Shown here one piece after another: positions 15,657 through 19,939 of a stretch of 64,000 bases of DNA (its first letter is position 1; each line of letters starts with the position of its first letter). The notes below the pieces were generated by a model. The model was not told where the DNA came from and did no database searches. It worked only from the letters and a program-made list of their open reading frames with translations. This DNA is from Roseomonas aeriglobus. GTDB lineage: Bacteria; Pseudomonadota; Alphaproteobacteria; Sphingomonadales; Sphingomonadaceae. The stretch spans positions 124,001-188,000 of the forward strand of contig JAFHKN010000002.1 of the NCBI GenBank assembly GCA_016937575.1. The letters are read 5' to 3'. The position numbers were made by a program, and so were the translations under genes.

Positions 15657-15796
15657 GGCCCTTTGCCGGGAAGCGCGAGATACTGACGCGCTTTCTTCGC
15701 ATTACAAGTCTTGAAACCGGGGCCGACACGATTCACATTCCATCTGTGCCGAGCAACCGGCACGTTCGTGTTCAACAAGCGAAAGGAGGTGATCCG

Positions 15797-15853
15797 ATGT
15801 CTCATGGTTCAGCAGTGGGGTCGGTTCAGTTCGTTCGGGAGACGCGCTTCTGA
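15797..15853 (+). CDS. 18-residue small ORF with extreme Shine-Dalgarno sequence
   Basis: ATG 15797 to TGA 15853 encodes MSHGSAVGSVQFVRETRF. It is preceded by GAAAGGAGGTGATCC (15781-15795), complementary to the last 15 bases expected for the 16S rRNA, with 7 bases between GGAGG and ATG. This is far stronger than any other RBS in the window, so translation is very likely if it is transcribed. No membrane segment or known peptide family is visible. It may be a real microprotein or a leader whose translation controls the hairpins after it. Confidence 0.45.
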   Translation: MSHGSAVGSVQFVRETRF

Positions 15854-15994
15854 CCTGACGCGCGGATCAGGCGCTTGTCGCCGATCCGTGAGGGCGCGCG
15901 GGGGGTATCCTCCCCCAATCAACGCCGTCCGCATCAGGCATCAGAGGCCCGCATGGTCTCCCGGGCTGGAGCTCTCCGGCCGCTGACCATGTCG

Positions 15995-16042
15995 GAGGTC
16001 GTCGGGGTGGTAGAAGCCACCTCGGCGGCCTCTTTCATTTTT
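15995..16042 (+). terminator. Strong Rho-independent terminator of the small RNA element
   Basis: A 16-bp continuous stem including G-U pairs (15995-16010 with 16017-16032), a 6-base loop TAGAAG and a T-rich tail TTTCATTTTT (16033-16042). There is no annotated gene immediately upstream except the tiny ORF, which is why it supports a separate short transcript. Confidence 0.8.
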
Positions 16043-17854: not shown

Positions 17855-19939
17855 GTGCCGAACGTCATCCGATCCCTGCGAAATCTTGGCGGCACCCGAC
17901 TGAGCGGCGCGCCTGCCGACCGAGCGGTCGACGAAGCGCTGGCACAGGGTGAGCAGGCGCAGTTGCTGGTCCGCGAGTTCGAGGAACAGGGCTCCGGCTG
18001 GTTCTGGCGAACCGACCGCGACGGCTTCGTCACCTATCTTTCGCGCAAGGTCGCCGATCAGCTTCAAGCGGCCGACGGCGGAATCGGCGCAACGCTGACC
18101 ACGCTGTTCCAGATGGACAGCGACAGCCCGGAAACCGAACGCACCCTGGGTTTTCATCTGTCGTCGCGCACGTCCTTTGCGGAATATTCGGTGCGCGGGG
18201 TTGCCGGCAACACCGACCGCTGATGGTCGATTTCGGGCCGCCCGATCGTCGATGCCAACGGCAATTTCCAAGGGTTCGTCGGCTGGGGCAGCGACCTGAC
18301 CGCCAAGCGCCGGTCGGAGGCGGAGATCACGCGCCTGGCGCTGTTCGACGGCCTGACCGGCCTGGCCAATCGCCAACGGATACGCCTGTCGCTCGACCAG
18401 ACGCTGGCACAGCTTGCGACGACCTATCGCACCGCGGCGCTGATGCTGCTCGATCTCGACCGGTTCAAGGCGGTCAACGATACGCTCGGGCATCAGACCG
18501 GCGACGCGCTGCTGAAACAGGTCGCCCAACGACTGACGCGGGCGGTCGGCGACGCCGGGCTGGTCGGGCGTGTCGGCGGGGACGAATTCAAGGTGCTGGT
18601 GCCGACCGATGCCGATCGCGATCGGCTGGCGACGCTGGCCGACACGATCATCGCGTCGCTGTCGCAACCCTATTTTATCGGCGGGTCGTCGATTTCCATC
18701 GGCTGCTCGATCGGCATCGCGGTCGCCCCCGACGACGGCACGGATGGCGATTCGCTCGTCCGCAATGCCGACCTGGCGCTCTATTCGGCCAAGGGCGACG
18801 GACGCGGCATGCACCGCTTCTTCCGTGAGGAGATGCTGGACGAGGCGCGCAACCGCAAGCAGCTGGAAGACGACCTGCGCCAGGCGCTGGTCGGGGATCA
18901 GCTCCACCTTGTCTACCAGCCGATCGTCGCCACCGCCGACGAACGGATCACCGGCTATGAAACGCTGCTGCGGTGGAACCATCCGGTGCGCGGGGCCATC
19001 AGCCCGGCCGAGTTCGTGCCGATCGCCGAAGAATGCGGAATGATCGAGACGATCGGCACCTGGGTGCTGCGCCAGGCGTGCGCCGACGCGGCGCAATGGC
19101 CGGGTGACACGCGGGTTGCGGTCAACATTTCGCCCATTCAGTTCGCCAACCCGGCACTGCCGTCGATCGTCACGAGCGCGCTGGCCACCTCCGGCATCGC
19201 CGCTGCCCGGCTGGAGTTGGAGATCACCGAGAGCGTGTTCGTCAATGAAGGTGCGTCGACCGAGGCGATGTTCGCCAGCCTGAAACGGCTGGGGGTGCGG
19301 CTGGCGCTCGACGATTTCGGCACGGGCTATTCGTCGCTTGGCTATCTCCGCAAGGCGCCGTTCGACAAGATCAAGATCGACCGCAGCTTCGTCTACGGCG
19401 TCTCGGATACGACCAACCGCAACGCGGCGATCGTCCGTGCGATCGTGACGCTGGCCGACACGCTGGGGATGGAAACGACCGCCGAAGGGGTCGAGACGCA
19501 GGACGAAATCGGCCTGATCCGCGATCTGGGCTGCACGCACATCCAGGGATGGGTCTACGGCAAGGCCGTGCCTCAGGCCGATGTGCTGGCGCGCGCCGCG
19601 ACCGGCGAAACGCGGATCGCACCCGTCGGACACCGCGTCAGCCGCGCGACCAGGACGAAGGTGCTGCGCTGGGCTAAGCTCGAGGTGGGCGGCAGCTGTG
19701 GCGACGTCCGCATCCGCAACTGGTCGTCGGGTGGCGCGCTGATCGACGGTATCGCCTTTCCCGCCGGGTCGGAGGGGTGTCCTGTCCGGCTGGATCTGGG
19801 CGACGGCCGCGTGGTCGCCGCGATCGTACGCTGGGCGCAGGAGGACCGCGCCGGGCTGGCGTTCGATCGGCCGATGCCGCTGGAGGCGCTCGCGCCGCGT
19901 TCGCAGCAGCGCGCGCCCGATCGATCCCGCACCGGCTGA
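17855..19939 (+). pseudogene. PAS-GGDEF-EAL-PilZ c-di-GMP protein interrupted by in-frame TGA
   Basis: One continuous 695-codon frame from GTG 17855 to TGA 19939, except for a TGA at 18221-18223 (codon 123). It stands where family members read Trp (DR-W-WSISGRP), so a single TGG-to-TGA change explains it. Before it lies most of a PAS domain (GSGWFWRTDRDGFVTYLS). After it come a GGDEF domain with intact GGDEF (241-245), an EAL domain with ETL instead of EAL at 369-371 but intact DDFGTGYSSLGYL, and a C-terminal PilZ domain with NWSSGG. No strong internal start lies before the GGDEF domain; the first in-frame ATG (18443) would cut it. Could be a real loss or a sequencing error. Confidence 0.8.

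Follow-up and report, generated by a model that had tools for sequence, protein, structure and literature searches.

Why would an open reading frame of only 18 codons be preceded by 15 bases complementary to the 3′ tail of 16S rRNA, and be enclosed in a strongly folded RNA with its own terminator? This question is raised by a locus in a 64,000-nucleotide stretch of Roseomonas aeriglobus DNA (positions 124,001 to 188,000 of contig JAFHKN010000002.1, forward strand; hereafter 'the window'). An earlier note, made from the letters of this DNA, had proposed three roles: a dual-function RNA that encodes a microprotein, an RNA that binds ribosomes, or a translation-sensing leader that ends at its terminator.

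An anti-16S box and a mini-ORF within a structured RNA

The features of the locus are collected in Table 1. Transcription is predicted to start at about 15746, as judged from the promoter-like TTGAAA/CACATT pair; a consensus scan of the locus returned no promoter. The motif CAACAA lies between the P0 hairpin and the anti-16S box. Within the box, GGAGG (15785–15789) ends 7 bases before the ATG (15797) of the mini-ORF, whose TGA occupies 15851–15853; these coordinates confirm the spacing to an 18-codon ORF that had been read earlier. The fold of 15781–16042 (−144.4 kcal/mol) is far stronger than that of shuffled sequence (z = −6.25, 200 shuffles). Stacked hairpins follow the ORF, as described in the earlier note. 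The terminator and T tail described there were also recovered by a terminator scan (2 terminator-like sites versus 0.6 expected in shuffles); the stem, at 15994–16033 with the tail TTCATTTTT, has 18 pairs rather than the 16 first counted. One element did not survive: the mutually exclusive pairings that had been placed near 15854–15888 fall in columns of alignment A1 (below) that are largely gapped in relatives. We have dropped that switch as a conserved feature, and the opposition of P1 and P2 to ALT takes its place.

Table 1. Features of the locus, in window coordinates
Feature	Position	Strand	Evidence
Promoter-like TTGAAA – 17 bases – CACATT	15711..15739	+	putative, by eye
P0 hairpin, predicted 5′ end	15746..15763	+	beats the mean of its own shuffles in 34/34 same-genus loci
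Anti-16S box GAAAGGAGGTGATCC, extended Shine-Dalgarno	15781..15795	+	invariant in 41 aligned same-genus sequences
Mini-ORF MSHGSAVGSVQFVRETRF, 18 codons + TGA	15797..15853	+	start-codon test; length tests
P1 5′ strand, CATGGTTCAGC + GGTCGG, codons 3–6 and 8–10	15803..15824	+	partner-permutation tests
P2 5′ strand, CGGGAGAC + CTTCTGA, last codons + stop	15836..15853	+	covariation, alignment A1 (helices 3 and 4)
P3 hairpin, GGGGG/CCCCC core, borders approximate	15893..15930	+	helices 5 and 6, two-sided changes in 12/12 pairs
P2 3′ strand, TCAGAGG + GTCTCCCG	15941..15963	+	covariation
ALT 5′ strand CATGGTC, rival partner of 15985–15991 (GACCATG)	15952..15958	+	pairable in 41/41 genus sequences
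P1 3′ strand, CCGGCC + GCTGACCATG	15976..15991	+	partner-permutation tests
Intrinsic terminator stem + T-rich tail	15994..16042	+	terminator scan; covariation in 8/14 pairs (helix 7)

The 15-base complement to the 16S tail claimed for 15781–15795 is exact: the box pairs throughout with GGATCACCTCCTTTC (followed by T), the 16S 3′ end of a same-genus genome (G004). We used this same-genus 16S as the reference, the 3′-end pattern having turned up in a single one of the 13 genomes searched, and the assembly under study having shown no match to it; 16S 3′ ends seem to be absent from most of these 13 assemblies. A simple base-composition estimate gives a chance expectation of about 0.005 such 15-mers in 4.28 Mb, and the looser 13-mer AAAGGAGGTGRTC has two sites in the assembly, both within RNAs of this kind. 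Start-codon-proximal extension of 16S pairing is also described for Staphylococcus aureus in an extract of PMC13009471; there it concerns mRNAs of ordinary genes and sORFs, whereas here it belongs to a small RNA under a closing helix.

Such a box might act as a decoy: an RNA that holds the 30S subunit by 15 base pairs and thereby lowers or buffers general translation, its ORF only aiding release. The complementarity does reach far beyond an ordinary Shine-Dalgarno core (duplex of −28.0 versus −10.1 kcal/mol for AAGGAGG), and no part of the family is as constant as the box. However, a pure decoy needs no start codon, fixed ORF length or stop, and all of these are kept (see below); we consider this reading fairly unlikely.

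A divergent relative of CC2171

By BLASTN, 34 of 36 same-genus relatives have the locus (one of them only as a fragment of 92 bases at the end of a contig), and 24 genomes from the order's other families gave no match. Of 296 genomes of the order, 174 contain the pattern AAGGAGGTGRTC-N0-4-ATGTCTCA; the matches listed all come from the window's own family. A second copy is found in the same genome (contig C5). It shares only the 5′ block with the window RNA in BLASTN, and has a mini-ORF (MSHC...), closing helix and terminator of its own. We refer to the window's type as type A and to that of the second copy as type B. In two other genomes, boxes of the GATCC and GTCTG forms lie on the same strand about 4 kb apart (G294:C1:1542578 and 1546653; G298:C1:1894285 and 1898862), a hint of local duplication.

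At curated cut-offs, Rfam has no match in the window. A laxer scan aligned the locus to RF01867 (CC2171) with 30.4 bits (E=1.7e-4), and B-type and other loci with up to 73 bits. Across the whole genome the B copy ranks first (51.5 bits) and the window RNA second (E=2.1e-4); the next place has E=0.11. Since its score is below the cut-off of 75 bits, we describe the window RNA as a divergent relative of CC2171, not as a member of the family; the relation itself we regard as firm. Class-wide, RF01867 is found at E<=0.01 in 56 of 240 genomes, with 7 above the cut-off; it is also found in 23 of 37 relatives, all of the same genus and none above the cut-off, some of these matches being weak. Other names from the laxer scan scored lower: ctRNA_pGA1 (on the terminator), epsC and isrG were taken as chance or terminator look-alikes.

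CC2171 was reportedly discovered as a Caulobacter sRNA by Landt et al. in 2008. The likeness consists of the 5′ block CAACAA-GAAAGGAGGUGAUCC-NUGUCUCAU, a helix that joins the start of the ORF to the bases before the terminator, and the terminator; in the window, the block is represented by the anti-16S box with NTGTCTCAT, and the closing helix by P1. The window type differs in its additional P2, P3 and ALT, and the Rfam entry is not presented as coding. The RF01867 model aligns the 3′ part of the window RNA to bases other than P1, so that the 3′ strand of P1 is misaligned.

The literature on CC2171/RF01867 and on Caulobacter, sphingomonad or ORF-bearing small RNAs yielded no function for CC2171, and titles that matched the letters of the box were unrelated (probably 16S primers) and likewise named none. 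In the extracts at hand, a table of Caulobacter ncRNAs (PMC5988900) has no entry that we could match to CC2171, CC2171 is named as a match in a table of sRNAs predicted for Mesorhizobium huakuii (PMC5596092), and Rfam 15 (PMC11701678) credits the family with one added covarying pair. Caulobacter ncRNA regions in general, CC2171 not being singled out, are stated in part of PMC4117421 not to be translated; from Ribo-seq in Sinorhizobium meliloti, an excerpt of PMC10117765 reports that some annotated sRNAs are translated.

Rfam files the CC2171 relative as an sRNA gene, which would suit a classical trans-acting sRNA: the box or the loops would pair with mRNAs or with CCUCC-bearing sRNAs, and the ORF would be incidental. 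A precedent is Caulobacter CrfA, which sponges the CU-rich aR8 sRNAs SisA–D according to an extract of PMC12559287 and, like the window RNA, is rich in G and A and could engage a CCUCC motif. Extended pairing of the window RNA with UUUCCUCCCU was not found, and a CrfA-like aR8 sponge was rejected: only 5 bases of the box pair with the aR8 core (−8.7 kcal/mol), as against 15 with 16S. An incidental ORF would, moreover, not keep its start and stop. We judge a trans-acting role to be quite unlikely.

Start, length and stop of the mini-ORF are conserved; its peptide is not

The start codons of types A and B are uninformative, because these loci were picked by patterns that contain ATG. We therefore rely on the pattern GAAAGGAGGTGATCC-NNN-GTC, which leaves the first two bases of the start codon free, fixing its last base and the first two bases of codon 2. 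It is present in 52 of 385 alphaproteobacterial genomes, and the reversed control is absent among the matches listed. All 52 matches have a start codon at this place (ATG 26, GTG 23, TTG 3), and CTG never occurs; the preceding base varies (A 28, G 15, T 6, C 3).

The length of the ORF is also constrained. Among class loci, that is, those found by the RNA model in a class-wide sample, the first in-frame stop follows after 20–35 codons in 26 of 26; the shifted frames give 4 and 6, and shuffling predicts 5.2, for a bin that was chosen after the data had been seen. (These 26 come from 30 loci; three A or B copies were left out, as was L195, which has the box and a GTG.) For 27 fresh loci chosen by the above pattern alone (26 distinct ORFs, some of them close relatives), the bin of 15–35 codons was fixed beforehand: it holds 22 of the 27 ORFs, compared with 6 and 7 in the other frames, and the remaining five have 14, 36, 55, 56 and 56 codons. 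The A-type set comprises 119 loci with 114 distinct sequences. One of the searches gave at least 119 stretches, with 80 loci among the matches listed. In 104 of the 119 A-type loci the ORF has 18 codons; it ends in TAA in 71, TGA in 36 and TAG in 11, and one locus has no stop in reach.

No such constraint is apparent in the peptide. In types A and B we found no selection at the amino-acid level, the trait expected of a dual-function RNA: the codon-substitution score does not exceed the column-shuffled mean, and the frame shifted by two outscores the ORF's own frame. Codons 2–4 are invariant across 64 A-type loci, as is to be expected if RNA pairing fixes them. Peptides of different types are alike only in their first residues, one A-type relative (L068) has a length change within the ORF, and by eye the peptide has no hydrophobic character, unlike the conserved, hydrophobic peptide expected of a type I toxin mRNA.

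These data bear on a further alternative, in which the RNA is dual-function or a tiny mRNA and its peptide of 18–26 residues is the product that matters. Conservation of the start, stop and length of the ORF would fit it, as would a common TW-I/V motif, discerned by eye, that recurs in class loci of the GTG type. Furthermore, six loci (L105, L128, L134 (Azospirillum), L240, L262 and L263) have ORFs of 55–59 codons with a signal-peptide-like start (…ANAECSSSH…, …ALAECSTSH…), so that there are lineages in which the RNA resembles a small mRNA that encodes a secreted protein. Set against this are the substitution scores, the dissimilar peptides and the length change in L068, and we rate the peptide reading as unlikely. 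We are confident, as far as sequence comparison reaches, that start, length and stop are conserved far beyond the genus, with no sign of this in the peptide sequence of types A and B; it seems that the ORF is retained because it is read, and not because of its peptide.

Covariation supports a closing helix and further helices

P1 joins codons 3–6 of the ORF (in type A also codons 8–10) to the bases directly before the terminator. Its core is invariant in 41 sequences of the genus, and the case for its covariation therefore rests on comparison between types: the strands are CATGGTTCAG/CTGACCATG in type A and CATTGTC/GACAATG in type B, and single loci have CATGAAT/ATTCATG (L213) or ATGAGATT/AATCTCAT (L212). 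In 18 class loci that lack CATTGT, P1 strands pair better with their own partners than with permuted ones (−7.56 versus −5.63 kcal/mol), and the same is true of 27 further loci (−7.31 versus −5.68 kcal/mol); in each test, 0 of 20,000 permutations were as good. These permutation tests replaced a one-by-one comparison of types, in which a locus's own partner was best in 36/40 A, 0/30 B, 1/26 class and 0/3 Azospirillum loci, and which is uninformative for B and class loci because CATTGTC is so widely shared.

The other helices could be followed within the genus, using alignments A1 (41 sequences) and A2 (48 sequences) made from 110 A-type references; 7 further loci of the A-type reference list either lack the exact 3′ motif or are from Azospirillum. 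P2 links the end of the ORF to 15941–15963 and includes joint changes (at one pair, for example, T-A in 16 sequences and G-C in 18); P3 and the terminator covary as well. For the structure as a whole, two-sided changes occur in 23 of 55 pairs, compared with 13.6 after shuffling (0 of 500 shuffles as good); the shuffles ignore relatedness, and the real structure nonetheless beats all six slid versions of itself. One half of what the earlier note would have taken as a refutation, a lack of conservation or covariation outside this strain, is contradicted by the BLASTN survey and these pair counts. ALT (15952–15958 with 15985–15991) is nearly invariant, and so yields no covariation; it is incompatible with P1 and, by overlap, with P2a.

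P3 contains an unpaired AATCAAC that shows strong conservation within the genus and is similar to the TTCAAC in front of the box. This stretch might be a contact for a protein or an RNA.

Ribosome docking would compete with the closing helix

We modelled the fold in five states. For the free RNA, taken from 15746, the pairing probabilities are 0.97 for P2a, 0.99 for P2b, 0.61 for P1 and 0.02 for ALT; the value for P1 depends on the 5′ end, falling to 0.25 with another one, and the box is itself partly paired (unpaired probability 0.37). With a 30S subunit only at the start, P1 is open and P2 is kept. Once a ribosome sits in mid-ORF or at the stop, the values are 1.00 for ALT and 0 for P1 and P2a. 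The P1 duplex (−21.9 kcal/mol) is weaker than that of the box with 16S, and opening the 30S footprint costs 14.2 kcal/mol, or 9.0 kcal/mol when the P1 partner is replaced.

Across loci, the modelled pairing of the P1 3′ strand with the free ORF reaches one half in 49/110 A, 29/30 B and 12/26 class loci. Only 23/110 A, 0/30 B and 2/26 class loci are in addition predicted to refold into a local hairpin, and we rejected such refolding as a general rule. From these counts, the general part appears to be docking against P1; refolding into ALT would be an addition of type A, and not in every A locus.

On balance, then, we think that this is probably a free-standing small RNA with a predicted ribosome-gated switch, a divergent relative of CC2171. 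A 30S subunit would dock on the Shine-Dalgarno box, a perfect match over 15 bases, and would pry open the helix that ties the beginning of the mini-ORF to the sequence just ahead of the terminator; it is likely that ribosome docking competes with the closing helix. So strong a box may be what a start site under a closing helix needs. In the model, a free ORF leaves P2, and partly P1, formed; a ribosome in mid-ORF or at the stop would abolish P1 and P2a, and the freed 3′ half would fold into the ALT hairpin. We infer that the passage of the ribosome matters, not the peptide, in which case ribosome supply would set the shape or the lifetime of the RNA. As to the output, our bet is that the freed 3′ half changes in its stability or its base-pairing.

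Genomic context favours a free-standing RNA

A small lipoprotein-like gene lies upstream of the RNA in 109 of 119 A-type loci. We read it as lipoprotein-like from its letters, Pfam giving no match; no such neighbour was seen at B, class and Azospirillum loci. Downstream genes vary between loci, and in the window the next genes, that for thymidylate synthase included, are on the other strand. With the upstream neighbour constant and the downstream genes variable, a free-standing RNA is favoured. Further along the window, a stop codon (18221–18223) splits an ORF of 122 amino acids (17855–18223) from a GGDEF-EAL frame (18224–19939) that continues in the same frame.

This context also bears on an attenuator-type leader, in which translation of the ORF would decide between termination and read-through into a downstream gene. 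A mini-ORF, alternative folds and a terminator are all present, and in the folding model the folds of the window RNA do depend on ORF occupancy. In addition, 36 of 119 A-type loci (e.g. L047) have, downstream of the RNA and on its strand, an aminotransferase-like gene that we take to be of the branched-chain type. However, this gene follows in 0 of 34 same-genus loci, there is no constant same-strand downstream gene, the ORFs of those 36 loci contain only 0–4 Ile/Leu/Val codons, and the terminator stem is formed in all five modelled states. We consider an attenuator very improbable. As presented in part of PMC10117765, rnTrpL/peTrpL of S. meliloti too is an alphaproteobacterial small RNA with a mini-ORF, translated there and predicted here, but it is leaderless and arises by attenuation before trpE, whereas the window RNA has a maximal Shine-Dalgarno sequence and no constant downstream gene.

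Among the roles first proposed, that of an RNA which binds ribosomes or senses translation, and which ends at its own terminator, has gained from the box, the start codon, the ORF length and the closing helix. The microprotein is weakened by the want of an in-frame signal in types A and B, and a leader role for a downstream gene by a shared neighbour that is upstream and by downstream genes that vary; we regard a leader of a downstream gene, or a functional microprotein, as unlikely.

A possible meter of ribosome supply

A bolder extension of the ribosome-gated switch, which we hold to be possible though doubtful, is that these RNAs are a widespread alphaproteobacterial sensor of ribosome availability, with a mini-ORF that is free of content and an act of translation, attracted by the maximal Shine-Dalgarno pairing, that holds the closing helix open. 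When 30S subunits are short, the RNA would snap shut, and its stability or its partners would change. The CC2171 'sRNA' would then be a translation meter, not a classical antisense regulator, and a second copy would have evolved in the Sphingomonadaceae, elaborated by a refolding hairpin of its own.

A catalogued sRNA family appears to carry a genuine start codon behind a maximal ribosome-binding site, and an ORF whose length is constrained, with no conserved peptide. RF01867 is worth rebuilding with the mini-ORF and with the sphingomonad type, which the present cut-off misses. If translation itself is the signal, these RNAs would offer a direct and testable handle on how alphaproteobacteria read their ribosome supply, and an example of an ORF that is conserved without its product.
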